37,470 nt of DNA. It comes from Candidatus Ruthenibacterium merdigallinarum. Its GTDB lineage: Bacteria > Bacillota > Clostridia > Oscillospirales > Ruminococcaceae. The DNA lies in NCBI GenBank assembly GCA_019113785.1, contig DXGT01000004.1, positions 1 through 37,470 of the forward strand, given 5' to 3'. Position numbers and translations under genes: made by a program. Positions within the stretch are counted from its first letter, which is position 1; every line of letters begins with the position of its first letter. The notes under the pieces were generated by a model. It made no database searches and had not been told where the DNA came from. It saw only the letters and a program-made list of their open reading frames with translations. Shown piece by piece: positions 14,096 to 27,489 of the stretch.

Positions 14096-16429
14096 TCAGT
14101 CGATCAGGCTCTCGTCCTGGAATTCCACTTCGATCACAGCGCCCATTTGCACGCTCTCGCCCGCGGCGACGTTCTGCGCCGTAGCCTTGACGGTGGCGCT
14201 GTCCTTCGCGGCGCCGATGGGCAGCAGGTTCAGCTGCTCGGCCGCAAGGGCCTGCTCCACCTGTTCGTACGTCATGCCCACAAGGTTTGGCACCGTCACC
14301 GTCTGGGCGGCGACGCTTTCGTCCGTGTACAGCATGATGGTGGAGCCCTGCGCCAGCTTCGTGCCGGCGGCCGGGTACTGCGCCACCACGCTGGTGCCGG
14401 CGCCGAAGGTCTCGGCGTTGAAGCTGCCGGCCTTGTTCAGCTGGATCATCGCCTCGTCCAGCAATTCTCCCGTCACGTCCGGCAGCGTGATCTCGGCGAA
14501 TTCGGCCTCGCCCTCGTCGTAGCTGCGCTCCACGCCCAGGTACGGCAGGATCTCGCGCATCACCTTGCCCACATAGGGCCCGCAGATGCGCCCGCCGAAG
14601 GTGTTGCCGTCCTCGCGGCTGGGCGTATCGGCCAAAATCAGCACGGCCACCTGCGGGTCGTCCGCAGGGGCGAAGCCGAAGAACGAGGCCACATAGGTCT
14701 GCGTCTCGTCGTCGCCCGCGGCGCTCTGGTCCTTCTGGCTGGTGCCGGACTTGCCGCCGATGCGGTAGCCCGCCACATAGGCGTTGTTGCCGTGGCCGGT
14801 GGCCACGCTCTCCTCCAGCATGGCGGCGATGGTGCGGCTGGTCTCCTCGCTGATGACCTGCCGCTTCACCGTGATGCCGTGCTCCTCGACGACGTTGCCG
14901 TCCGCGTCGAGCACTTTATCCACCACATAGGGCACCACCAGCTGCCCGCCGTTGATCGCGGCCGAAGCCGCCGTGAGCATAGCGATGGGCGTCACCGCGC
15001 TGGACTGGCCGAACGCGCTGCTGGCCAGCTGCACCGTGTTCAGCTCATCGGCCGAATACGTCTGGCTGACAGCCTCGTCGTCCATGTCGATGCCCGTGCG
15101 CTCGTTGAAGCCGAAGACGTTGAGATAATCGGCGAACGTCTCGGCGCCCATCTGCCAGCCCAGCTGCACAAAGTACGGGTTGCACGAGTAGTTCAGACCG
15201 TCGTAGAAGCTCAGGTTCGTCAGGCCCTTCTGCACGTGCTGGCCCGCGCACGCGATGGGCTTCGACCAGCCGGGCACCTCGATGCTGCCCGTGCAGGTGA
15301 AGTGCGTGTTCACCGTGGCCTTGCCGGAGTCGAGCGCCGCGCTGGCCGTGATGATCTTGAACACGGAGCCCGGGTAATACAGGTCCGACACGGCCTTGTT
15401 GCGCCGCTGGGCCCACAGCTCGGTGTCGTAGGCGTCCTGGCGCTGCTGCTCGTCGGCGATGGCGCTGATCTCGGCCAGCGCCTCGGCGTCCACGATGGTG
15501 TTCGGGTCGTTCAGGTCGTAGTCGGGCTTTGTCGTCATCGCGAGGATCGCCCCGGTTTTGACGTCCATCACAATGCCCACCGCGCGCTCCTTGACGTTGT
15601 TCAGCTCCACCATCGTCTGCACCTGTTTTTCCAGGATGCTCTGCACGGTCTGGTCGATGGTCAGCACCAGGCTGCTGCCGTCGATGGCGTCGTACTGCGT
15701 CTCGTATTCCGTCTCGGGCAGCTCGTCGCCCCAGGCGTTCTGCGGCACCACCACGCGCCCCGGCGTGCCCTTCAGATCCTCGTTGTAATAGCGCTCCAGC
15801 CCGTTGACGCCGTCGCCGTCGACGTTCACATAGCCGATCACCGTCGAGGCCAGGTTGTTGTAGGGGTAGTAGCGCTTGGAGTCCTGCTCCAGCGTGATGC
15901 CGCGCACTTTGCTGTTTTTGTGCGCGGGGTCGGCGTTGTACTCCTCAATCCAGCTTTCCAGCTCGTCGGCCACGGGCTTTTCGATCTGGCGCTTGATCAG
16001 CTGGTACGTGCGGTACGTGCCGTCCTCATAGGTGGCCGTCAGCTTTTCCTGCACCTCGGCGGCGTCCATCTCCAGCAGCTCCGCCAATTTGGCCGCCAGC
16101 ACGGCCACGTCCGTGCCCGCCTCGTGGATGGCGTCGGGCGAGGCCGTCACCGTCCACACGGTAGCGCTAGTGGCCAGCAGCTTCATGTTCGCGTCGTAGA
16201 TATTGCCGCGGTTTGGCGCGATGGTCTCGTCGCCGGTCTGCTGCTCCTCCGCGCGGGCGCGCCACTCCTGCGTGTCGCGGATCTGATACGTATACAGCAT
16301 ATACACCAGCACGCAGAAAAACAGCATCAGGCCCGCGCCCACCGCGATGAAGCGCCCGCTCATGCCGCGCGTCACCGCCGAGGGCGAAGGCCTCGCGGTT
16401 TTTTCAGGCTCGTTGGCCCTTCGTTTCAT
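14096..16429 (-). CDS. Class B PBP with two PASTA domains (FtsI/SpoVD/PBP2B type)
   Basis: A 777-residue single-pass membrane D,D-transpeptidase for septal (or spore cortex) peptidoglycan. A short basic cytoplasmic tail is followed by a transmembrane helix (about 27-48), the dimerisation/pedestal region with IAPNRGNIYDAN, and the transpeptidase domain. Catalytic motifs are SVFK (Ser355, Lys358), SCN (415-417) and KSGTS (560-564). Two PASTA domains end the protein (from about 640, LPDVTGELLDEA and VPNLVGMTYEQV). Division PBPs of Firmicutes and SpoVD share this layout, so I cannot decide between them by sequence. The ATG at 16429 with GGGGG six bases upstream is preferred to the ORF track's start 18 codons earlier. 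It follows the ftsL-like gene. Confidence 0.93.
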   Translation of the reverse strand: MKRRANEPEKTARPSPSAVTRGMSGRFIAVGAGLMLFFCVLVYMLYTYQIRDTQEWRARAEEQQTGDETIAPNRGNIYDANMKLLATSATVWTVTASPDAIHEAGTDVAVLAAKLAELLEMDAAEVQEKLTATYEDGTYRTYQLIKRQIEKPVADELESWIEEYNADPAHKNSKVRGITLEQDSKRYYPYNNLASTVIGYVNVDGDGVNGLERYYNEDLKGTPGRVVVPQNAWGDELPETEYETQYDAIDGSSLVLTIDQTVQSILEKQVQTMVELNNVKERAVGIVMDVKTGAILAMTTKPDYDLNDPNTIVDAEALAEISAIADEQQRQDAYDTELWAQRRNKAVSDLYYPGSVFKIITASAALDSGKATVNTHFTCTGSIEVPGWSKPIACAGQHVQKGLTNLSFYDGLNYSCNPYFVQLGWQMGAETFADYLNVFGFNERTGIDMDDEAVSQTYSADELNTVQLASSAFGQSSAVTPIAMLTAASAAINGGQLVVPYVVDKVLDADGNVVEEHGITVKRQVISEETSRTIAAMLEESVATGHGNNAYVAGYRIGGKSGTSQKDQSAAGDDETQTYVASFFGFAPADDPQVAVLILADTPSREDGNTFGGRICGPYVGKVMREILPYLGVERSYDEGEAEFAEITLPDVTGELLDEAMIQLNKAGSFNAETFGAGTSVVAQYPAAGTKLAQGSTIMLYTDESVAAQTVTVPNLVGMTYEQVEQALAAEQLNLLPIGAAKDSATVKATAQNVAAGESVQMGAVIEVEFQDESLID

Positions 16430-16536
16430 CTTGCTCCCCCTTGGGCACAAAGCGCCGCGCCGCGGCGCCGGAATAAAAATCACCGCGCTTTTTGCACCGT
16501 TCCCCGGGCAGAAAGGCGGTGATAAACACTATGTTT

Positions 16537-17046
16537 TCAGGATGTGAAGTATGACATGATGCTCAGCAGCCCGCTCGACAGCTCGTCCGCAAAGCGGCCA
16601 AAGCCCGTCTTGGTGCGGGTGACCGAGTTCTCGGCCTTGCCCGACACATAGATGATCTGGCTCTGGTCCAGCTTGACAAGGCCCAGCTGGTCCTGCGCGT
16701 ACTGCTCGACCTGCGTGATGTTCGCCTTCATCTCCATCTCGTTGCTGAGATAGGCGTACTCGCTTTGCAGTTCCACCAGCTGCTGCTGCTGCGTCTGGAT
16801 GTCGCCGGTCAGCTCCGTCACTTTCGTCTGCGAGAACAGCACACTCAGCATCAGGCCCGCCATCAGGGCCCCCATCAGCATCAGCGACAGCGTCTGCATG
16901 CTGACGGGCAGGCGGCGGAGCAAGCCCTTCTTCTTCGGCGTCTTTACAACGCGCAGCTCCTCGCGCCGGCGCTCGGGGCGCGGCGCAAAGGTCGCAAGGT
17001 CGTACTCCGGCTGCATGCGCGGCGCGGCGTTCATATTCTGCTGCAA
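16537..17046 (-). CDS. ftsL: FtsL-like septum formation protein
   Basis: A 169-residue bitopic membrane protein. A basic cytoplasmic tail (ERRREELRVVKTPKKKG) precedes one transmembrane helix (about 49-71). A coiled coil follows (QTQQQQLVELQSEYAYLSNEMEMKANITQVEQYAQ) with the ending AQDQLGLVKLDQSQIIYV that is typical of FtsL/DivIC proteins. FtsL joins FtsQ and FtsB to activate the FtsW-PBP pair. Position between rsmH and the PBP gene is the standard place for ftsL. The start is a TTG at 17046 with AAAGGAGG nine bases upstream; the next in-frame ATG has no ribosome site at the right distance. About 30 residues after the conserved end (SVTRTKTGFGRFADEL...) are unexplained. Confidence 0.85.
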   Translation of the reverse strand: MQQNMNAAPRMQPEYDLATFAPRPERRREELRVVKTPKKKGLLRRLPVSMQTLSLMLMGALMAGLMLSVLFSQTKVTELTGDIQTQQQQLVELQSEYAYLSNEMEMKANITQVEQYAQDQLGLVKLDQSQIIYVSGKAENSVTRTKTGFGRFADELSSGLLSIMSYFTS

Positions 17047-17109
17047 GGCTCCTCGCCTCCTTTCCCTTTCCTCCCGGCGCGCCGGCTCACGAAACGCCCG
17101 CGCCCCGTT

Positions 17110-18033
17110 TTACAGTTTTTCCACAATGCGCAGCTTCGCGCTGCGCGCGCGCCGGTTTTCCTCCTGTTCAGCGGCCGACGGCTCAATGGGTTTGCGCGTG
17201 ACAAGGCGGGCTTTGGCCTTCCCTCCACACACGCACACCGGAAATTCCGGCGGGCACGTGCAGGCCGTGGCCCACTGCTTGAAACGCTGTTTGACAAGCC
17301 TGTCCTCCAGCGAGTGGAACGTGATGATGCAAAACCGACCGCCGGGGCGCAGCGCCGCGAAAATGGCGTCCATGCCCTCGCTCAGCGCGTCCAGCTCGCC
17401 GTTCACGGCGATGCGCAGCGCCTGGAACGTGCGGCGCGCGGGGTTTTTCGCCTTGCGGCGCACCGCGCTGGGCACGGCCCCGGCCACAATCGAGGCAAGG
17501 CGGCCCGTCGTCTCGATGGGTTCTCTCTCTCGCTCGCGCACGATGCGCCCCGCGATCTGCCAGGCGTTCGGCTCCTCGCCGTATTCGTTCAGGATGCGCG
17601 CCAGCTCCTCGCGCGGGAGCGTCGCCACCAGATCCGCGGCTGTGGGGCCCGTCTGGCTCATGCGCATGTCGAGCGGCGCGTCGGCGAGATACGAAAAGCC
17701 GCGCCCGGCGTCGTCCAGCTGATGGGACGAGACGCCGAGGTCGAGCAGCGCGCCGTCGAGGCCCTCGACGCCGAGGCGCTCGAGCACCTTGTCCGCATAG
17801 CGGAAATTTTCCCGCACCACCGTGGCGGGCAGGCCCGCAAGGCGCTGCGCCGCGGTTTTGACGGCGTCCGGGTCCTGGTCGAGGCTGATGAGCCTCCCGC
17901 CCGCAAGGCGGGAAGCGATCTCTCTTGAGTGCCCCGCCCCGCCCGCAGTGCCGTCGAGATATGTGCCTTCCGGCTGGATGGCAAGCCCCTCAAGGCATTC
18001 TGCGAGGAGGACGGGGACATGATGAAACTCCAT
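17110..18033 (-). CDS. rsmH: 16S rRNA (cytosine1402-N4)-methyltransferase RsmH
   Basis: A 307-residue SAM-dependent methyltransferase (formerly MraW) that modifies C1402 of 16S rRNA in the P site. The N-terminus MEFHHVPVLLAE, the SAM loop YLDGTAGGAGHS, the motif DGALLDLGVSSHQLDDAGRGFSY, and the C-terminal FHSLEDRLVKQRF with the TCPPEFPVCVCG cysteine cluster are all family traits. The ORF track adds 12 residues. I use the ATG at 18033 because GGGGGT lies eight bases upstream and this is the normal N-terminus. mraZ ends four bases before this start, so translational coupling is likely. Confidence 0.96.
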   Translation of the reverse strand: MEFHHVPVLLAECLEGLAIQPEGTYLDGTAGGAGHSREIASRLAGGRLISLDQDPDAVKTAAQRLAGLPATVVRENFRYADKVLERLGVEGLDGALLDLGVSSHQLDDAGRGFSYLADAPLDMRMSQTGPTAADLVATLPREELARILNEYGEEPNAWQIAGRIVREREREPIETTGRLASIVAGAVPSAVRRKAKNPARRTFQALRIAVNGELDALSEGMDAIFAALRPGGRFCIITFHSLEDRLVKQRFKQWATACTCPPEFPVCVCGGKAKARLVTRKPIEPSAAEQEENRRARSAKLRIVEKL

Positions 18034-18037
18034 GGCG

Positions 18038-18457
18038 TCAGACCCCCAATTCTTCCATAGCGGCGGCAATGCTGGCGCTGTCGAGAGTTTCGTTCATCTT
18101 CTTCCAGGCCGCGGTGTCCCAGATCTCGGCATGGCCGCCCACGCCGATGATGGTGACGTCTTTTTTCAGGCCCGCGTGCGCGCGCAGCGCGCCCGTCAAA
18201 AGGATACGGCCCTGTTTGTCCGGCTGCACCTGCGCGGCCGAAGCGAACAAAAAGCGCTGGATGTTGCTCGTTTTTACGATGCTCTTCTCGGCAAGCAGCG
18301 CGGCCACGCGCTCCCACTCTTTTTCCGGGAACGCGACCAGGCAATTGTCGAGCCACCGCGTGACGATGAACTGCGGGCCCATCTCGTCGCGGAATTTGGG
18401 CGGGAAGTTCACGCGGCCCTTGTCGTCGATGGCATAGCTGTACTCGCCGATCAACAT
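18038..18457 (-). CDS. mraZ: Transcriptional regulator MraZ
   Basis: A 139-residue AbrB-like double-barrel DNA-binding protein that represses or modulates its own division operon. Two SpoVT/AbrB-like repeats are visible: GEYSYAIDDKGRVNFPPKFRD at the N-terminus and QVQPDKQGRILLTGALRAHAGL near residue 77. The length is normal. It is the first gene of the division cluster. Upstream are a strong promoter and four repeats of the GTGGGG type at a 10-bp period, which fits the known binding mode of MraZ rings. The ribosome site is weak: a GGAAGGG about 13 bases before the ATG. Confidence 0.96.
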   Translation of the reverse strand: MLIGEYSYAIDDKGRVNFPPKFRDEMGPQFIVTRWLDNCLVAFPEKEWERVAALLAEKSIVKTSNIQRFLFASAAQVQPDKQGRILLTGALRAHAGLKKDVTIIGVGGHAEIWDTAAWKKMNETLDSASIAAAMEELGV

Positions 18458-18753: not shown

Positions 18754-19902
18754 TTACCGGGCGCTTTTCCCGCATCCGGCGCGCCCCGCGCGGGCGATGC
18801 AAATGCGCCGGGGCCCGCTTGCAGGCGGGGCGGCTTTTGCGCCCTGCGCCGCCGGGCCGCTCTCCTCTTGTGCGCGGCGGGCGGCTTTGCGCGGGCCTTC
18901 TTCGCCGCGCCCCGCCGCCGCATAAATGGCCAGCGCGGCCCATGCGACCGCAAGGTGGGCGGCGCAGCGCAAAAGCGCCATCTTTGCCTGCACGTCTTTT
19001 TCAAACGGGCGCAGGGACAGCCACGCGCGCACGCCGTCGGCAAACTGCCCGGCCAGCGCGGGCCAGAAGGAAAAATCGCTCCAGCGCGCGGGGATCATCC
19101 AGCCCGGCAGCGCGCCGAGCGCCGCCGGCAAGGCCAGCGCGGCGCACACCGACAGCGCTAGCAATGCTGCGCCGCGCGCAGGGGGTGCAAGCGCGCACGC
19201 GCTGCGCAAAAGCCGCGCCGCCAGCACCAGCGCCGCGAGGACCAGCGGCGCAAAGCACAAAGCCTTCGCCAGGGCCGCCGTGCCTGCGCCCACACAGACG
19301 GCGTCCGGCTCGCCGAGGCCTGCGGCCGCGGCAAACGCGCGCGCCGAGTCGGTTTCCTCTGCGCCGGGTTCGCCCTGCAATTCCACACAGGTGAACGCCT
19401 CGTCCTCCCCTGCGCCCGCCAGCGCCAATAGCCCGCCGCCTGCAAACACGCCGCGCACCGTGTACGCGCGGCGCGCGCCGTCCTGCGTCTCCATCGTCAG
19501 CGGCAGGCCCACGACGTCGGCCGCGCCGAACAATTCCTGCGCCAGCGCCTCGCTCAGCGCGCAGCCGGCGGCGTCCTGCGCGCCGGGCATGCCGCCGCAC
19601 AAAAAGTCCGCCGCAAAGCACGCGCCGCCGTCGCCGCAGAAGGCGATCACCTCGGCCTGCGCCGCGGTGCGCGGTGTGCGCACCGTGCGCCGCTCCTGCC
19701 GCCAGAAGGTGGGGACGCCCTGCCCCGCCTCCTGCGCATAGCGGCGCGCCGCCTGTACCTGCGCGGCGGGCAGGGGCGTTTCGTACCGCAGGCCGGCGGC
19801 CGGATACAGCGCCTCGGCGCGCTGCGCCGCGCGCAGGGCGAAGAACAGGCACAGCCCGCACGCCGCGAGCGCCAGCGCGCGCAGCAACCGGCGCGCGCTC
19901 AT
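18754..19902 (-). CDS. MacB-like membrane protein, permease-like, no ATPase
   Basis: A 382-residue protein. An N-terminal transmembrane helix (about 5-25) is followed by an extracytoplasmic region of about 200 residues. This contains LSEALAQELFGAADVVGLPL and AYTVRGVF, which recall the periplasmic core domain of MacB/FtsX-type ABC permeases. Three hydrophobic segments follow (about 215-235, 245-265 and 310-328), and the last 50 residues are basic and low in complexity. FtsX-like permeases normally work with an ATPase of the LolD/MacB type, but none is encoded nearby. The start overlaps the upstream adaptor gene by ATGA, so the two are coupled. The family call is tentative, since similarity is by eye and over short motifs. 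Confidence 0.55.
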   Translation of the reverse strand: MSARRLLRALALAACGLCLFFALRAAQRAEALYPAAGLRYETPLPAAQVQAARRYAQEAGQGVPTFWRQERRTVRTPRTAAQAEVIAFCGDGGACFAADFLCGGMPGAQDAAGCALSEALAQELFGAADVVGLPLTMETQDGARRAYTVRGVFAGGGLLALAGAGEDEAFTCVELQGEPGAEETDSARAFAAAAGLGEPDAVCVGAGTAALAKALCFAPLVLAALVLAARLLRSACALAPPARGAALLALSVCAALALPAALGALPGWMIPARWSDFSFWPALAGQFADGVRAWLSLRPFEKDVQAKMALLRCAAHLAVAWAALAIYAAAGRGEEGPRKAARRAQEESGPAAQGAKAAPPASGPRRICIARAGRAGCGKSAR

Positions 19903-21206
19903 TCTTCCACCCGCACGCGCGCGCCCTCGCTGAGGGCTTTCGACGCGCCCGTCACAATGCGGTCGCCCGGCGCGACGGAGCCCGTCACGGCCACGATGTC
20001 CGCGCCGCGCGCCTCCACCTGCACGGCCATGCGCTCCAGCACGGTCTGCGCGCCCAGGACGGTCTGGCGCTCGCGCGCGGCATAGACGAACGTCCCCTGC
20101 GCGTCCTGGCGCACGGCCTGCGCGGGCAGGCACATCGCGTACTCGGCCTCGCTGAGCGTGATGCGCGCCGACGCCGCGCCCTCGCGCCACTGGGCGTCCG
20201 GCAGGCGCGCCGTCACCTGCACGCCGCCGTCCTCGAGCGCGCGCACGGCGTCGATCGACGCCTGGGCTTCGCCGCTCTGCTCCTGCGAGACCGTCGCCGC
20301 CGCGCCCGCCTGCGCGAGCTGCGCGTCCTCGCCGTACAGCGCCGCCTCGAACACATAGCCGCCCGCCGCCGTCGCAAGGGTGCACGCCTCGCCTTGCGCG
20401 GCCTGCCCGGGCGCGAGGCTCCATGTGAGCAGCGTGCCGTCCGCCTGCGCGCACAGCGCATAGCCGTCGTCCGCAAGCGCCTCGAGCGCCGCGAGCTGCG
20501 CCTCCAGCGCTTCGATTTGCAGCGCCAGCACCCCGGCCTGCGCCGCATTTTCCCGCTCGGCCTGCGCGGCGGCGGCCTGCGCGTCATGGTAGGCGGCGAT
20601 GGCCGCGTCGCGCGCCTGCTGGGCTTGCAGGGCCGCGCGGTTGGCTGCTTCCAGCGCCTCCTTCGCGCTTTGCACGGCCGCTTCGTCCGGCGGGTCGGCC
20701 GCCTGCGCCGCATCGAGGGCCGCCTGGGCCCCGCGCACGTCCTCATAGGCCCAGTCCAGCGCGGTCTGGGCCGCGGCGGCCTGCGAGGCGTCCGCTGCAT
20801 CCGTCTGCAAAAGGGCGTCGCGCTGGGCGCGCAGAAGCGCGAGCTGCGCGTTCGCCTGCCGCGCGGCCCGCTGCGTCTGCGCCTCGTCGAACTGCGCGAT
20901 GCGCTGCCCGGCCTGCACGCGCTCGCCCTCCTGCACCAGCAGGCTTTGCACCACAGCCCCCTCGGGCGCGGCCTGCACCTCGCGCGCAGCGGCTCGCACC
21001 GTCCCCTCGGCGGCGGCCTCCACGCGCACCACGCCGCGCGCGGGGCCCGTCAGCGTCACGGTGGGCAGCGCGGCCTGCGCCGCGCCCTGCGCCGCGAGCG
21101 TCAGCACCAGCATCGCCGCGAAAAAACGCGCGGCGCGCCGCAGCGCCGCGTCGCCCTCCCTTTCGCGCAGCGCCGAAAGCGCGGCGCGCATATCCGGCAG
21201 CTTCAT
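19899..21206 (-). CDS. HlyD-like membrane fusion/adaptor protein
   Basis: A 435-residue protein with an N-terminal hydrophobic segment (about 32-50). A lipoyl-like half motif follows (PEGAVVQSLLVQEGERVQAGQRIAQFD). Then comes a long alpha-helical hairpin of Ala/Gln/Glu-rich coiled coil (about 110-240), the second lipoyl half (LADDGYALCAQADGTLLTWSLAPGQAAQGEA) and beta-barrel domains ending GDRIVTGASKAL. This is the layout of periplasmic adaptor or membrane fusion proteins such as HlyD, MacA and YknX. In Gram-positives these assist ABC exporters. Here it lies downstream of sugar-type import permeases, which is unusual. The ATG at 21206 has AAAGGGGAG upstream; an ATG at 21224 overlaps the previous stop as ATGA and could also be used. 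Confidence 0.8.
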   Translation of the reverse strand: MKLPDMRAALSALREREGDAALRRAARFFAAMLVLTLAAQGAAQAALPTVTLTGPARGVVRVEAAAEGTVRAAAREVQAAPEGAVVQSLLVQEGERVQAGQRIAQFDEAQTQRAARQANAQLALLRAQRDALLQTDAADASQAAAAQTALDWAYEDVRGAQAALDAAQAADPPDEAAVQSAKEALEAANRAALQAQQARDAAIAAYHDAQAAAAQAERENAAQAGVLALQIEALEAQLAALEALADDGYALCAQADGTLLTWSLAPGQAAQGEACTLATAAGGYVFEAALYGEDAQLAQAGAAATVSQEQSGEAQASIDAVRALEDGGVQVTARLPDAQWREGAASARITLSEAEYAMCLPAQAVRQDAQGTFVYAARERQTVLGAQTVLERMAVQVEARGADIVAVTGSVAPGDRIVTGASKALSEGARVRVEE

Positions 21207-21220
21207 GCCGCTCTCCCCTT

Positions 21221-22075
21221 TCATCCTTCTTTCAGCCCGGCGCTCTGGATGCCGAGCTCGAGATAGTCCTGCCCGAACAGGAACACCAGCACCGCGGGCG
21301 CGAGCATCAGCAGGCTGGCCGCGCACGCGAGCGACAGCGCCGAGGCCGGCACCTGCGGCAGATACAGCGACAGCGGCCACAGCGCCTGGTTTTTCAAAAA
21401 CGTCATCGGCTGCTCCACAGCGCCCCACGCCTCGAGAAAGCACAGTACACACGCCGACAGAATGCCCGGCATGCCCAGCGGCAAACCGATCGACCAGAAC
21501 GTGCGCGCATAGCCCGCGCCGTCGAGCGCGGCCGCCTCCAGCAAGCTGCGCGGCACGCTGTCAAAGCCCTTTGCCATGATGAACACGGGGAACGCCGAGA
21601 ACGCGCCCGGCAGGATGACGGCCCACATCGTGTCCATCAGGCCCAACGCGTCCAGCACAAGATAGCTGGGCACCATCGTCACCTGGAACGGCAGCAGCAT
21701 CAGCACCGTATACACCGCCAGCAGCGGCCGGCGCAGCCGAAAGCGCAGGCGCGACAGGGCCCACGCCGCGCCCGCGCCCGCCAGCAGCTGCCCTGCCACC
21801 TGCCCGAAGGCCTGCGCGCAGGTGTTCCAGAACATCACGAAGAACTGCGGCGTGTCGAAGAGCAGCTGCACGGCGGGCGCGAGGCTGGGTGCGGGCGGCC
21901 ACAGCGGCCAGACGGCGTACCCCTCGCCCGCGCCGAGCGCCGGGCTCAGCGCCGCGGCCAGCGCGCTCTGGCCCGTGACGGCGCCGCACGCCATGCACCA
22001 CACCGCCGCCCACGAGAGCGCCGCCGGCGCGCACAGCACAGCCAGCGCCGGCCCCGCACCGCCCCGGCGCCTCAT
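21221..22075 (-). CDS. Carbohydrate-type ABC permease (MalG-like)
   Basis: A 284-residue inner-membrane permease of the binding-protein-dependent (MalG/LacG-like) family with about six helices. The cytoplasmic EAA loop, which docks the ATPase, reads EAAALDGAGYARTFWSIGLPLGMPGI (about 195-220). Other MalG-like marks are FWNTCAQAFGQVAGQLLAGAGAAWALSRL and MLLPFQVTMVPSYLVLDALGLMDTMWAVILPG. The ORF track starts far upstream; the true ATG at 22075 overlaps the stop of the other permease as ATGA, showing coupling. No ATPase gene is in the window, so a shared MsmX/UgpC-type ATPase encoded elsewhere would be needed. Substrate unknown. Confidence 0.9.
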   Translation of the reverse strand: MRRRGGAGPALAVLCAPAALSWAAVWCMACGAVTGQSALAAALSPALGAGEGYAVWPLWPPAPSLAPAVQLLFDTPQFFVMFWNTCAQAFGQVAGQLLAGAGAAWALSRLRFRLRRPLLAVYTVLMLLPFQVTMVPSYLVLDALGLMDTMWAVILPGAFSAFPVFIMAKGFDSVPRSLLEAAALDGAGYARTFWSIGLPLGMPGILSACVLCFLEAWGAVEQPMTFLKNQALWPLSLYLPQVPASALSLACAASLLMLAPAVLVFLFGQDYLELGIQSAGLKEG

Positions 22076-22956
22076 GCGCCGCCCCCGCGCATGGCGCGCT
22101 GCAGCGGCAGCGCCAGTGCCAGCAGCGCCAGCGCCGACAACACGGCCGCCGCCGTCAGGCGGCCCATATCCAGCGAGGCGAACCAGTTGTTGAACAGATG
22201 CTGCAAAAGATAGATGCTCTCGTGCGGGTAGCTGCCCGCGACGAGATACGCCTCGCGGAAGGCTTTGAACGCGTTGACAAGGCTCAGCAGCGCCGTAAGC
22301 GCCAGCGTGGGCGCAAGCTGCGGCAGCGTGATGCGCCGCAATGTCTGCCAGCGCGTGGCGCCGTCCACGGCGGCGGCCTCGTACAGGCTGTCCGGCACGG
22401 CGCCGAGGCCCGCCAGCCACAGCACCATGTCATAGCCGGCGTTTTTCCAGACGTAAGTGCCCACCAGCACCCAGAACGCCGCGCCCGTGCCCATGAAATC
22501 GACCTCCTGCGCGCCCAGCGCCGCCAGCAGGCCGTTCACCGCGCCCCTGCGCGCAAACAGCACCTGCCACAGCAGCGCCACGCTGGCCACAGGGAGGGCC
22601 ATGGGCAGCAGAAAGGCGGTTTTCAGCCGGCGGGCGGCACGCGGCGCGCGGCCTTTCGCCAGCGGGCGCACCGCCAGCGCCAGCGCGAAGCTGACTGCCA
22701 GCAGCAGCGGCACGCACACGCACAGAAAGCGAGCCGTGTTGCCCGCCGCCAGCCGGAACGCCGCGTTGCCCAGCACCGCGCGGTAGTTTGCAAGGCCCGC
22801 ACCCTGCGTGCCCAGCGCGTTTGTAAAGCTGCGGCGCACCGTCTCGGCGAACGGCGCCAGCACGAACAGCGCCGTGCCCAAAACGCTGGGCAGCAAAAAG
22901 CACGCGGCCGCGGCCGCCTCGCGCCTTTGCGCGCGCCCGTTCCGCTTGTGCGCCAT
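22072..22956 (-). CDS. Carbohydrate-type ABC permease (MalF/UgpA-like)
   Basis: A 294-residue membrane permease with six predicted helices. The N-terminus KRNGRAQRREAAAAACFLLPSVLG resembles UgpA/LacF-type permeases, and the EAA loop reads EAAAVDGATRWQTLRRITLPQLAPT. It would pair with the following MalG-like permease as the channel for the lipoprotein encoded upstream. Two starts are possible: the ATG at 22956 (AAAGGGG nine bases upstream) and the ATG at 22965 (AAGGG seven bases upstream). I use the first. The ORF track's start at 23010 has no ribosome site. About 150 bp separate it from the lipoprotein gene, with no clear terminator. Confidence 0.88.
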   Translation of the reverse strand: MAHKRNGRAQRREAAAAACFLLPSVLGTALFVLAPFAETVRRSFTNALGTQGAGLANYRAVLGNAAFRLAAGNTARFLCVCVPLLLAVSFALALAVRPLAKGRAPRAARRLKTAFLLPMALPVASVALLWQVLFARRGAVNGLLAALGAQEVDFMGTGAAFWVLVGTYVWKNAGYDMVLWLAGLGAVPDSLYEAAAVDGATRWQTLRRITLPQLAPTLALTALLSLVNAFKAFREAYLVAGSYPHESIYLLQHLFNNWFASLDMGRLTAAAVLSALALLALALPLQRAMRGGGA

Positions 22957-23102
22957 CGCCGCCATCCCCTTTCCCTTCGCCGTCCCGGTTTCTTTCAGCA
23001 TACCGCGCAAAGCTCAAAAAAGCCTGAAAGACGAAAAAACGCAGAAAAAGCGCGGGGCACGCCGTTTTTCCGCGCCCCGCGCTCCTTCTCTTTTCCAATC
23101 GC

Positions 23103-25385
23103 TCACTGCCGCTCGGCAAGATAGAGCGCCAGCTCCTGCTGCAAGGCCGCGGCGGCTTCGTCCGCCGTCTCGCCGCCGTCGCAGATGCGCGCGGCGTGGG
23201 CCAGCAGCTTTTCGTACACGGCCTCGTCGCGCGTCACGGGCGTCTGCGCCCGCTCAAGGAACGCGCGCACGTCGCCCGCGTACGCCACAGTGTAATCGCC
23301 GTCCTCCAGCAGCGCCAGCTGCGCGTCCAGCGCGGCGTTTGTCACAGGCAGGCACCCGTTCTGCGGCTGCGTCTGCACCTCGTCGCTCAAAAGCAGGCTC
23401 ACCCACTCGGCCGCGGCGTCCTTGTTCCCGCTGGCGGCCGAAACGCCCGCCAGCGTATTCGGCTCATAGGCCCCCTGCACAAGGCCCGGGCGCGGCACAA
23501 GGTACAATTCCCCGCCCGCGGCGTCCTGCGGCAGCAGCATGTCGGTGAAGTACCCCACGCCCGCGAGGTCCGCATAGCCGTAGCGCGAGGCGTGCACGAA
23601 CGAATACTCGTATGCCGGCTGCAAATACGTCACCATCACCGCGCGGTCGCCCTGGCTGGCCGCGCCGTAGTCCTCGCTGTACGCGCGGCCTTTCACGTCG
23701 TTGCAGGCGGCCGCCTGCTCGAGGAAGGCGCACAGCGCGCGCAGCGCCTGGCCGTCCACCGCGCCGCCGGACAAAAGCGCCGGGGCCGACGAATCGTACG
23801 CGAAATCCAGCACGTCCTGCGCCGTGGCAAACGGCATCGCATGGCGCTGCGCCTCGGTGCGCTGGGCGTAGAATTCGTCCGAATCCATATCCATCGCCGG
23901 GCGCGCGGGGCTCGCCTGCATCGCGCTGCACACGGCGTCCAGCGAGGTGAGGGCCTCGGTGTCCTGCGTGTCGCCGTATACAATCGGCATCGTCCACCCG
24001 CCGGGCACCACATACATCGCCTCTGACGCAAAGTCCGCGCGGATCTGCTTTTGCAGCGCGTCTGCGTCCACTTTGCCCGAGAGGTCCTCCAAAAGGCCCT
24101 GCGCAATGTAGGACGCGTAATCGACGCCGTCGAGGATCAGCACGTCCGGCCCCTGCCCGGCCAGCAGTTCGGTGTTCAGCGCGCGCAGCGCGTCCTGCGC
24201 GCTGGCAAAGCCGCCGTCCTCCAGCGCCGCCGTCACCTGCACACTCGACTCCGGGTGCTTTTGCAGGTACGCGGCGCTGGCCGCATCCACAAGATTGCTC
24301 GAGCGCAGCGTCCAGATGCGCAGCGTATCCTGCGCGGCGCTGGGCGCCGTCTCGTCGTACGCATAGCGCGTCAGCTCGCCCGTCATGCTCTCGCCTGCCA
24401 TCGTCACGTTCACGCACAAAACGCTGCCGTCCGGCGCGGCCGCCATGCTGATGGCCGTGTTGGACGGTTCGGAGAACGAATACCCGAGCCCCTCGCACAC
24501 GCGCTCGGTAACGGTTCCGGACGCGGAGCGCCGGCTGAGCCCGTCGGTGCTCAGCCACCAGCAGCCGCCATCCTCGTCCGCGGCCGCAGCGCTGATATAG
24601 CTCTGCACATCGGGCGAGACCGTCTCCTGCACCTCGCCGGCGGCGTCCATGCGCGCAAGCAGCGGCATATAGTCGCCGCCCGTGCCCAGCAGCCACGCGC
24701 CCTGCCCACCCGGGATGGGCGCGCAGGCTGTGAACGGCTGGCTCGCGCTCGAGATGGCAAAGTCGGAGACGTCACAGTCCGCCGTTTTTTCGCCGGTGTC
24801 CGTGTCCATGAGCAGCGCGCGCTGCGCCGCGGCGTAGCCCTCATCCGTCATTTTGCCGACGGCGACGAAGAGCTGCGACGCGCTGAACGGCTCCAGCTGC
24901 ACGATGCGTTCGTCCTGCGCAAGGCCGGGCACGGCGAGCGGCGCGGGCGCCGCGTCGTCCGGCTGCGCCAGCTGATACGCCACTTCGCCCGTCTCGGGCG
25001 CATACGTCTCTAAAACCGCCGCGCCCGAAGGCAGCTGCGCGATGTTTGAGATGGCGCCCTGCACGTTTTCCATCCAGGGCAGCGCCTGCGCCTGCCAGGT
25101 GACGCCGCCGTCGGCGCTCACATAGCGCACGGGCGCGTAGTCCTGCTCGCGGACGGCCCAGCACACAAGGGCGCCGTCGTCGAGCCGCGCCACCGAGCGC
25201 GGCACCTCGCCCGCGGGAAATTCCAGCGCCGTGCGCTCCACCCAGCGGCCCATGGCCGCGCCCGCCGACGCGCCATCGGCGGGCGCAGACGAAGCGCCCG
25301 CGCCCGTCTGTTTGCCGCACGCGGCAAGGCCCAGCGCCGTCAGCGCCGCGCACAAAAGCGCGGCGCAGCGTTTTTTCCATTGCAT
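23103..25385 (-). CDS. Lipoprotein: propeller-like domain fused to solute-binding domain
   Basis: A 760-residue secreted lipoprotein. The signal peptide ends in the lipobox LAAC (LGLAACGKQ), so it is anchored on the outer membrane face of the cell. Residues about 50-340 are beta-rich, with an Asp-box SADGGVTW and repeats such as ADEDGGCWWLSTDGL, which suggests a beta-propeller. From about 350 (LRIWTLRSSNLVDAASAAYLQKHPE) the sequence follows family 1 solute-binding proteins, with LNTELLAGQGPDVLILDG and PQNGCLPVTNAAL. Typical binding proteins are about 430 residues, so the N-terminal half is an addition. The ATG at 25385 has AGGAG eight bases upstream. It leads the permease operon and is divergent from the two-component system. 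Confidence 0.85.
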   Translation of the reverse strand: MQWKKRCAALLCAALTALGLAACGKQTGAGASSAPADGASAGAAMGRWVERTALEFPAGEVPRSVARLDDGALVCWAVREQDYAPVRYVSADGGVTWQAQALPWMENVQGAISNIAQLPSGAAVLETYAPETGEVAYQLAQPDDAAPAPLAVPGLAQDERIVQLEPFSASQLFVAVGKMTDEGYAAAQRALLMDTDTGEKTADCDVSDFAISSASQPFTACAPIPGGQGAWLLGTGGDYMPLLARMDAAGEVQETVSPDVQSYISAAAADEDGGCWWLSTDGLSRRSASGTVTERVCEGLGYSFSEPSNTAISMAAAPDGSVLCVNVTMAGESMTGELTRYAYDETAPSAAQDTLRIWTLRSSNLVDAASAAYLQKHPESSVQVTAALEDGGFASAQDALRALNTELLAGQGPDVLILDGVDYASYIAQGLLEDLSGKVDADALQKQIRADFASEAMYVVPGGWTMPIVYGDTQDTEALTSLDAVCSAMQASPARPAMDMDSDEFYAQRTEAQRHAMPFATAQDVLDFAYDSSAPALLSGGAVDGQALRALCAFLEQAAACNDVKGRAYSEDYGAASQGDRAVMVTYLQPAYEYSFVHASRYGYADLAGVGYFTDMLLPQDAAGGELYLVPRPGLVQGAYEPNTLAGVSAASGNKDAAAEWVSLLLSDEVQTQPQNGCLPVTNAALDAQLALLEDGDYTVAYAGDVRAFLERAQTPVTRDEAVYEKLLAHAARICDGGETADEAAAALQQELALYLAERQ

Positions 25386-25432: not shown

Positions 25433-25442
25433 CCGCAAAAAA

Positions 25443-25459
25443 CTTGAAAAAGCCTTGAA
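25443..25459. promoter_or_regulatory. Response-regulator box, pair 1
   Basis: CTTGAA occurs twice with an exact 11-bp period (25443 and 25454). OmpR-type regulators commonly bind direct repeats spaced by about one helical turn. It overlaps the -35 region of the leftward operon. Confidence 0.5.
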
Positions 25460-25473
25460 GGGTTTGCACTTCT

Positions 25474-25492
25474 TTTAAGATTTGTTTAAGAT
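25474..25492. promoter_or_regulatory. Response-regulator box, pair 2
   Basis: TTTAAGAT occurs twice with an exact 11-bp period (25474 and 25485). It overlaps the -35 region of the rightward regulator/kinase promoter, suggesting autoregulation. Confidence 0.55.
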
Positions 25493-25509: not shown

Positions 25510-25540
25510 ATAGAACGAATGTTTGGGGGACGATGCTGCC

Positions 25541-26215
25541 ATGCGCATTTTACTGATCGACGACGACTGCGCGCTGACGGACGCCGTGTGCGCGGCGCTC
25601 GGCGCGCAGGGCTTTGCGGTGGACGTGTGCGCCGACGGGGCCGATGCGCCCTTTTACCTTTCGCAGAAGATCTACGACGCCGTGATCGTGGACCGCATGC
25701 TGCCGGGCTGCGACGGGCTGACGCTTGTGGCGCGCCTGCGCGCGGAGGGCGACCATGTGCCCGTGCTGATGCTGACGGCGCTGGGGCGCGTGGGCGACCG
25801 CGTGGACGGGCTGGACGCCGGCGCGGACGACTATCTGACAAAGCCGTTTGACATGCGCGAGCTGGCCGCGCGTCTGCGCGCGCTGCTGCGCCGCCCGTCC
25901 GAGCGCGCCGAGGAGGGCGTGCTGCGCGCCGGCGCGCTGACGCTCGACGCCTCGCAGATGACGCTGACGGGCCCTGCGGGCACGGTGGCGCTGTCGCGGC
26001 GCGAGTGCGACCTTTTGAGCGTTTTTCTGCGCAGCCCCGGCCGGCTGTTGGCGCGCAGCGTGCTGCTGGGCAGCGTGTGGGGCGCCGAGGCCGATGTGGA
26101 GGACGCCAGCCTCGACAGCTATGTCTACTTTGCGCGCCGGCGGCTGGCGGCGGCTGGCGCGGGGCGCATCGTCACGGTGCGCGGCGTGGGCTACCGCTTT
26201 GAGGTGACACCGTGA
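25541..26215 (+). CDS. OmpR-family response regulator
   Basis: A 224-residue cytoplasmic transcription factor. The receiver domain has the acidic triad IDDD (residues 7-9), the phosphoacceptor Asp51 in VIVDRMLPG, Thr79 and Lys101 in YLTKPFD. The C-terminal winged-helix domain has LSRRECDLLSVFLRSPGRLL and ends RIVTVRGVGYRFE, as in OmpR/PhoB. The ATG at 25541 has GGGGG eleven bases upstream, a slightly long spacing; the ORF track's TTG at 25523 has no ribosome site. The kinase gene overlaps the stop by GTGA. The divergent position and the paired 11-bp repeats suggest that it controls both itself and the permease operon. Confidence 0.93.
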   Translation: MRILLIDDDCALTDAVCAALGAQGFAVDVCADGADAPFYLSQKIYDAVIVDRMLPGCDGLTLVARLRAEGDHVPVLMLTALGRVGDRVDGLDAGADDYLTKPFDMRELAARLRALLRRPSERAEEGVLRAGALTLDASQMTLTGPAGTVALSRRECDLLSVFLRSPGRLLARSVLLGSVWGAEADVEDASLDSYVYFARRRLAAAGAGRIVTVRGVGYRFEVTP

Positions 26216-27489
26216 TCCGCCGGCTGCGCCGGCGGCTGGCGGCCGTGTTCACCGCGCTGACGGCGCTGGTGCTGGCGGCCGCGCTGGCGGCGTCCTGGCT
26301 GGCGGCGCGCAGCCAGCACGAGCAGCGCGTGCAGCATTCGCTTGAGGCGGCGGCCGCCGAGGTGCGCGTCATGCTGGCGCAGGGCAGCGTGTCGGACGCG
26401 CGCCTCTCCCAGCTGGAGCAGCAGCTGTACGGCGCGGTCGACGTCCGGGACGGCGGGCGGCCGCTGCATTTTTCCGGCGTGGTGTACACGGGAGAGGCGC
26501 GCACAGCCCTGCTCAGCGCCGCGCGCGCGGCGCTCGAGGACGCGCCGCAAACCGATGCGCCGCGCAGCGTGCGCGGGCCCGGCGGGCAGCGCTACCTCGC
26601 GTGCGCCGTGCACGTGCAGACCGGCGCGGGCGCGTGCGAGGCGCTGCTTTTGGCCGATGTGCGCGACCATTCGGGCAGCCTTGCGCGCCTGTGGCTTTTG
26701 CACCTTGGCATCTGGCTGGCGGGCGCGGCGGGGCTTTTCGCCGTCAACTGGGGCCTCGCGGGCTTTGCCATACGCCCCACGGCCGAGAGCCTGCGCGCGC
26801 AGACGCAGTTCGTCGCCGCCGCGAGCCATGAGCTGCGCAGCCCGCTGGCGGTGATCCGCGCGGGGCTTGCCGCCGCAAAGCAGTGCGGCGACGGCGCGCA
26901 GGCCAGCCGTTTCCTCGACGCGGCCGACCGCGAGGCCGCGCGCATGGGGCACCTTGTGGGCGATCTGCTGACGCTGGCCTCCGGCGACGCCTGCGCGTGG
27001 AGCGCGCAGCTCGCCCCGCTCGATCTGGAGGCGTTCCTTGCGCAGGTATTCGAGCAGTATGAGCCTTACTGCCGCGCGCACGGCCACACGCTGCGCGTGC
27101 AGCTGCCGGACGCGCCGCTGCCCGCGGCGGAGGCCGACCGCGAGCGGCTGATGCAGCTGTTCGGCGTGCTGTTTTCCAACGCGTGCAGCTACGCGCCCGC
27201 CAATACGCCCGTCGAGCTGTTCGCCCGCTGCGCAAAGCGCGCGGTGCTTCTCGGCGTGGCCGACCACGGCCCCGGCGTGCCGGACGCGGACAAGGCGCGC
27301 GTTTTCGAGCGGTTTTTCCGCGGCAGCGCCGACCGCGGCGACAAATCGCACTTCGGGCTGGGGCTGTCGGTGGCGGCGCAGCTGGCAAAGCTGCACGGCG
27401 GGGCGCTCTCCTGCTCGGACACGCCCGGCGGCGGCGCCACCTTCACGCTGACGCTGCCGCTGCGCCGCGCGCGCGGCCCCCGCACATAA
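26212..27489 (+). CDS. Sensor histidine kinase
   Basis: A 425-residue membrane kinase. Two transmembrane helices (about 10-32 and 160-182) bracket an extracytoplasmic sensor region of about 125 residues with no domain I recognise. The linker after the second helix is short, with no full HAMP domain. The phospho-accepting His lies in FVAAASHELRSPLAVI (near residue 207). The ATP-binding domain has the N box LFSNACSYAP, the G1 box DHGPGVP, the F box RFFRG and the G2 box GLGLSVA. It overlaps the regulator stop codon through a GTG start (GTGA), so the two are made together. A strong terminator follows. The signal may relate to the divergent lipoprotein's ligand. Confidence 0.93.
   Translation: MIRRLRRRLAAVFTALTALVLAAALAASWLAARSQHEQRVQHSLEAAAAEVRVMLAQGSVSDARLSQLEQQLYGAVDVRDGGRPLHFSGVVYTGEARTALLSAARAALEDAPQTDAPRSVRGPGGQRYLACAVHVQTGAGACEALLLADVRDHSGSLARLWLLHLGIWLAGAAGLFAVNWGLAGFAIRPTAESLRAQTQFVAAASHELRSPLAVIRAGLAAAKQCGDGAQASRFLDAADREAARMGHLVGDLLTLASGDACAWSAQLAPLDLEAFLAQVFEQYEPYCRAHGHTLRVQLPDAPLPAAEADRERLMQLFGVLFSNACSYAPANTPVELFARCAKRAVLLGVADHGPGVPDADKARVFERFFRGSADRGDKSHFGLGLSVAAQLAKLHGGALSCSDTPGGGATFTLTLPLRRARGPRT

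Follow-up and report, generated by a model that had tools for sequence, protein, structure and literature searches.

This locus raises the question of why an operon for sugar-type import permeases should also encode an HlyD-type adaptor and a MacB-like protein, and which ATPase would power the products. The window, by which we mean the whole 37,470-nt stretch of Candidatus Ruthenibacterium merdigallinarum DNA that was analysed, is contig C128 of a 2.18-Mb draft genome. Within it, a five-gene cassette runs on the minus strand from 25385 to 18754 in the order lipoprotein, MalF, MalG, HlyD/RND-type adaptor and MacB-like protein. The five genes lie where an earlier note on this DNA had placed them, and the last four are joined as it had described by ATGA overlaps between MalF and MalG (22072–22075), MalG and HlyD (21221–21224), and HlyD and the MacB-like gene (19899–19902). 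The lipoprotein gene has no such overlap, and the 146 nt that separate it from malF hold a 19-bp stem-loop (23043–23089, minus strand). This terminator- or processing-like structure has a predicted stability of -47.5 kcal/mol (z -4.3), equalled by none of 200 shuffled sequences. Pfam and NCBIfam models identified BPD_transp_1 in both permeases, RND_mfp/HlyD in the adaptor and SBP_bac_1 in the lipoprotein, and gave only a weak MacB_PCD match in the last gene. The earlier note had also remarked that neither of the expected ATPase classes is encoded here, and a search for PF00005 (ABC ATPase) indeed returned no match on the contig. A sigma-70 promoter scan gave no match. Approximately 300 nt downstream of the cassette, in the same direction, lies a division/cell-wall cluster of the mraZ-mraW-ftsL-ftsI type (14096–18457; named by eye from the translations), which did not recur downstream of the cassettes in the relatives.

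The conservation of the cassette was assessed in a MalG-only scan of GTDB genomes, which identified 218 relatives. Among the best 80 of these 218, selected by MalG alone, the HlyD and MacB-like genes follow MalF and MalG in every one of the 75 loci that were long enough to judge. The gene order, whose conservation in relatives the earlier note had proposed to check, is far beyond chance, and the agreement of 75/75 loci rules out a chance neighbourhood or a mis-joined contig. Among the carriers are Oscillospiraceae, Lachnospiraceae, Clostridiaceae and Defluviitaleaceae. When 299 genomes of the window's family were searched with a profile of the MacB-like protein, 31 gave strong matches. We had considered that the weaker matches might be ordinary MacBs; inspection of their surroundings overturned this, as many belong to further MalF-MalG-HlyD-MacB operons, in approximately 40 more genomes. 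In a MalF tree, in which the non-linked MalFs came mostly from the window's own genome, every cassette-linked MalF fell into a single clade (support 100/100), separate from the other MalFs sampled. The genes of the cassette, as read from these genomes, are co-inherited, and there is apparently a large importer clade of single origin in which the adaptor and the MacB-like protein are fixed partners. The nearest relative of the window MalF is that of an uncultured Ruthenibacterium (72% identity). The window's own subtype looks confined to part of the Clostridia, because just two of 399 genomes in a phylum-wide sample carry it, the window's own genome counted.

The MalF-type permease (294 aa; 22072–22956, minus strand) and the MalG-type permease (284 aa; 21221–22075, minus strand) are related in sequence to UgpA/UgpE/MalF/MalG, a CUT1 feature. 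Both contain an EAA loop (22309–22380 and 21467–21538, respectively), and a pattern search recovered the loop in 61/65 MalF and 64/68 MalG proteins of the window's subfamily. The retention of the EAA loops in this subfamily suggests live ATPase coupling. Of 46 MalF proteins from the sister subfamilies, the simple EAA pattern matched just 10.

The MacB-like protein (382 aa; 18754–19902, minus strand) consists of a first transmembrane helix, an extracellular domain of the MacB/YknZ type and three further transmembrane helices. The MacB-type extracellular core domain is present, and matches YknZ and MacB both by profile (E 2.6e-7) and by fold. The FtsX domain with its TM2–TM3 coupling helix, a feature of MacB/YknZ type VII permeases, is absent. 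In MacB, the cytoplasmic side of the protein carries the major coupling helix, which lies between TM2 and TM3 (PMC5985334). In an AlphaFold2 model of the MacB-like protein (mean pLDDT 90.9), TM2 (residues 205–236) and TM3 (240–263) are separated by a three-residue turn, at a junction (residues 231–244) encoded at 19171–19212 on the minus strand. The FtsX coupling signature was found in none of the MalFG-linked MacB-like proteins (0/68 and 0/48; 0/116 in all), whereas it was found in 7/7 MacBs encoded beside a LolD-type ATPase (Fisher p 1.4e-11), a comparison for which both the signature and the subfamily binning were picked after the sequences had been inspected. The Pfam FtsX model behaved in the same way, matching 0/61 and 0/6 MalFG-linked proteins versus 4/4 with a LolD-type ATPase. 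Judged by its sequence, the MacB-like protein no longer has the helix through which a LolD/MacB motor would be coupled. No fused or adjoining LolD/MacB-type ATPase is present at the window, and none of the window-type operons examined had a LolD-type ATPase within it or abutting it. The premise of the earlier note that the MacB-like protein needs an ATPase of this type fails for a family without the FtsX coupling region. An exporter whose ATPase is merely missing from the neighbourhood was rejected on the absence of the coupling helix and the FtsX domain. It should be noted that the MacB-like proteins diverge fast, with a mean column identity of 16%, and that both they and the HlyD proteins keep invariant or nearly invariant motifs. 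One such conserved motif, IPtRWSDFsFW (19063–19095, minus strand), lies in the predicted outer TM3–TM4 loop. In the sister MacB-like proteins of L122–L127, just two predicted transmembrane helices (or one) flank the extracellular domain, which gives the impression that the permease fold has been lost entirely.

The window genome contains one stand-alone UgpC/MsmX-type ATPase with no permease adjoining it (483 bits against a cut-off of 432), and in about ten of its MalFG loci no ATPase was seen. An ATPase of the MalK/UgpC/MsmX type, as CUT1 importers use, is therefore available in the genome. Related ATPases in or abutting such operons were seen only twice, and both are UgpC/MalK-type: in L014 an OB_MalK/TOBE_2 ATPase gene overlaps the MacB-like gene, and in G146/L160 a UgpC-type ATPase gene directly follows MalG, in a genome without any OB_MalK match. 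In Firmicutes, MsmX and MsmK each serve several incomplete importers (PMC7658222). The cassette is most likely powered by a shared UgpC/MsmX-type ATPase encoded elsewhere, the identity of which we infer. These observations agree well with one of the options in the earlier note, namely an importer that uses a borrowed, shared ATPase and whose two last-encoded proteins have their role at the envelope. OB_MalK was present in 25/26 well-assembled cassette genomes versus ~84% of others (Fisher p 0.14). Such co-occurrence, given its frequency in the other genomes, proves nothing alone, and we rejected it as too weak to serve as proof of the motor. At E<1e-60, no UgpC-like ATPase was found in G239, a 99% complete genome with a sister-type operon. 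An ATPase gene 147 nt behind the L045 operon was set aside, as it encodes one of two tandem proteins of exporter size (623–624 aa).

The lipoprotein (760 aa; 23103–25385, minus strand) is predicted to have a beta-propeller in its N-terminal part and, after it, a solute-binding domain of the type-I sugar class (model pLDDT 88). Its C-terminal half matches sugar-binding proteins, among them CbpC, GacH and MalE, and its N-terminal half matches beta-propellers and is nearly all strand in the model. A solute-binding lipoprotein of the sugar class is a further CUT1 feature present at the window. In some loci the lipoprotein gene is found in two or three tandem copies. Three propeller-SBP lipoprotein genes stand in tandem ahead of MalF in L045 (1–6470) and L070 (1–5840), which suggests several ligands for one permease. 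No conserved carbohydrate-active enzyme neighbour that would point to the substrate was found. The adaptor (441 aa; 19899–21224, minus strand) is of the HlyD/MacA/RND type and, by sequence profile only, contains lipoyl and barrel domains with a helical hairpin; it is anchored by one N-terminal transmembrane helix.

Divergent from the cassette, on the plus strand, are genes for an OmpR/PhoB-type response regulator (25523–26215) and a sensor histidine kinase (26212–27489), which overlap each other. An OmpR-type pair of this kind abuts 47/59 assessable loci of the window's subfamily, and a related pair was found in just 3/43 sister-subfamily loci. The intergenic region at the window contains the direct repeat TTTAAGAT-N3-TTTAAGAT (25474–25492), with 11-nt spacing, which from its sequence is a probable response-regulator site. 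Across 40 such regions between the two-component genes and the cassette, repeats spaced by 11 nt exceeded those in shuffled sequences with a Fisher p value of 3e-11, too small to be taken as exact because related loci are not independent. In the same 40 regions, the eight other spacings (8–10 and 12–16) showed no excess over shuffles. Tandem half-sites spaced by 11 nt are the sites used by OmpR/PhoB-type regulators. The adjoining two-component system probably controls the operon via these direct repeats. A second, imperfect 11-nt repeat, AAAAAACTTGA / AAAAGCCTTGA, is found beside the main repeat (25437–25458).

The cassette shows the CUT1 importer features tested and lacks the coupling features by which a MacB permease is defined. 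We regard it as probable that the locus encodes a conserved variant of a CUT1 (MalFG-type) importer, with a shared ATPase, a passive HlyD/MacB envelope scaffold and two-component control. In such a system, the propeller-SBP lipoprotein would capture an extracellular, presumably carbohydrate-like ligand, which MalF and MalG would translocate while a UgpC/MsmX-type ATPase from another locus, common to the cell's other importers, hydrolysed ATP. By comparison with MacA and MacB, the adaptor is assumed to dock on the MacB-like protein at its extracellular domain. The MacB-like protein, after loss of the ATPase-coupling region, would act as a passive membrane scaffold and not as a pump. The adaptors of MacAB-like pumps in Gram-positive bacteria assemble into hexameric tubes (PMC5768738), whose height matches the gap beneath the cell wall, and peptidoglycan is bound by YknX (PMC5985334). 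By analogy, the present assembly could retain the lipoprotein or conduct substrate across the sub-wall zone; it would span the space between membrane and peptidoglycan, probably holding the binding lipoprotein and/or guiding substrate to MalFG. The OmpR-type two-component system would regulate the operon through the 11-nt-spaced repeats. A bolder idea, which we advance tentatively and consider rather doubtful, is an import-directed trans-envelope ABC machine of Gram-positive bacteria in which an HlyD-type tube on a motorless MacB channels substrate across the region of the cell wall to MalFG, reversing the efflux role of the adaptor.

The main rival, an option also raised in the earlier note, is a role in sensing, in which the SBP-MalFG importer and the HlyD/MacB scaffold report ligand or flux to the adjoining kinase in the manner of BceAB-BceS, transport being secondary. 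The frequent adjacency of the OmpR-type pair in the window's subfamily, the 11-nt repeats in the common intergenic region and a MacB-like protein without motor coupling are all consistent with this model. However, the sister subfamilies keep SBP, MalFG, HlyD and MacB while seldom carrying the related kinase and regulator genes, and the EAA loops of the window's subfamily point to live ATPase coupling. We therefore consider a primarily sensory function unlikely.

Two further models treat the adaptor and the MacB-like protein as parts of an exporter. The operon might encode two machines, a MalFG importer and a separate HlyD/MacB exporter whose LolD-type ATPase would be borrowed from a different locus. 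In favour of this, the adaptor and the extracellular domain share homology with components of YknXYZ/MacAB, and true HlyD-ATPase-MacB operons are present in the same bacterial family. The earlier note had allowed that such a pair might occur elsewhere together with an ATPase of its own and lie here by chance; these operons encode a different, FtsX-bearing MacB, and the association described here stands. A second machine is made very improbable by the absence of the TM2–TM3 coupling helix and the FtsX domain from all members tested, by the sister members with just two predicted transmembrane helices, and by the lack of a LolD-type ATPase within or next to the window-type operons that were examined. 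Alternatively, the two genes could be leftovers of a decayed exporter that merely hitch-hike with the importer, as the fast divergence of the MacB-like proteins and a broken copy in one genome of the same genus (G143) might suggest. Both genes are, however, kept in all 75 loci across several families with motifs invariant or nearly so, and we consider decay the least credible account, with hardly any likelihood.

The importer variant that we favour resembles the CUT1 importers served by MsmX in B. subtilis (for example YesOPQ) and by MsmK in S. pneumoniae, which also combine an SBP lipoprotein with EAA-bearing MalF/MalG and have no ATPase gene in the operon, a UgpC/MsmX-type ATPase being encoded on its own elsewhere in the genome. 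Unlike these, the cassette adds an obligatory HlyD-type adaptor, a MacB-like protein, a propeller-SBP fusion and an OmpR-type two-component system. With the type VII ABC exporters YknWXYZ, Spr0693-0695 and MacAB it shares an HlyD/MacA-type adaptor beside a protein with the MacB extracellular domain, but it lacks the LolD-type ATPase, the FtsX domain and the coupling helix, and is always MalFG-linked. The extracellular domain is distantly similar in fold to LolC/LolE, whereas the MacB-like protein has neither the ATPase partner nor the coupling region of the LolCDE and FtsEX mechanotransmission systems. Like the BceAB-BceRS flux-sensing modules, the cassette places a transporter beside an OmpR-type two-component system, the likeness here being one of gene linkage and repeats alone; it differs in being a MalFG/SBP importer and in lacking an FtsX-type permease with a dedicated ATPase. 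Literature searches that covered few subscription papers found no published description of an importer combined with an adaptor and a MacB-like protein, and the cassette appears to be a so far undescribed machine of import and export parts in gut Clostridia. Gram-positive adaptor and MacB-like proteins are usually annotated as efflux-pump parts. If our interpretation is true, some gut Clostridia genes annotated as 'efflux' serve uptake or sensing, the MacB extracellular domain works without ATP, and adaptors have non-export roles. Anaerotruncus colihominis and Gemmiger formicilis are cultured carriers, which makes the cassette testable.

Finally, the arrangement of the genes varies in some relatives. 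MalG and HlyD are separated by a lipoprotein gene in L029, L031, L033, L034 and L038, so that the two permease genes form one block and the adaptor and MacB-like genes another, each separable from the other; some of these loci have a second lipoprotein gene beyond the kinase. In L131, the broken copy from the same genus, the order is altered to SBP, HlyD, MacB, MalF, MalG, the SBP and HlyD genes are fragmented, and a stop lies inside the MacB-like match.
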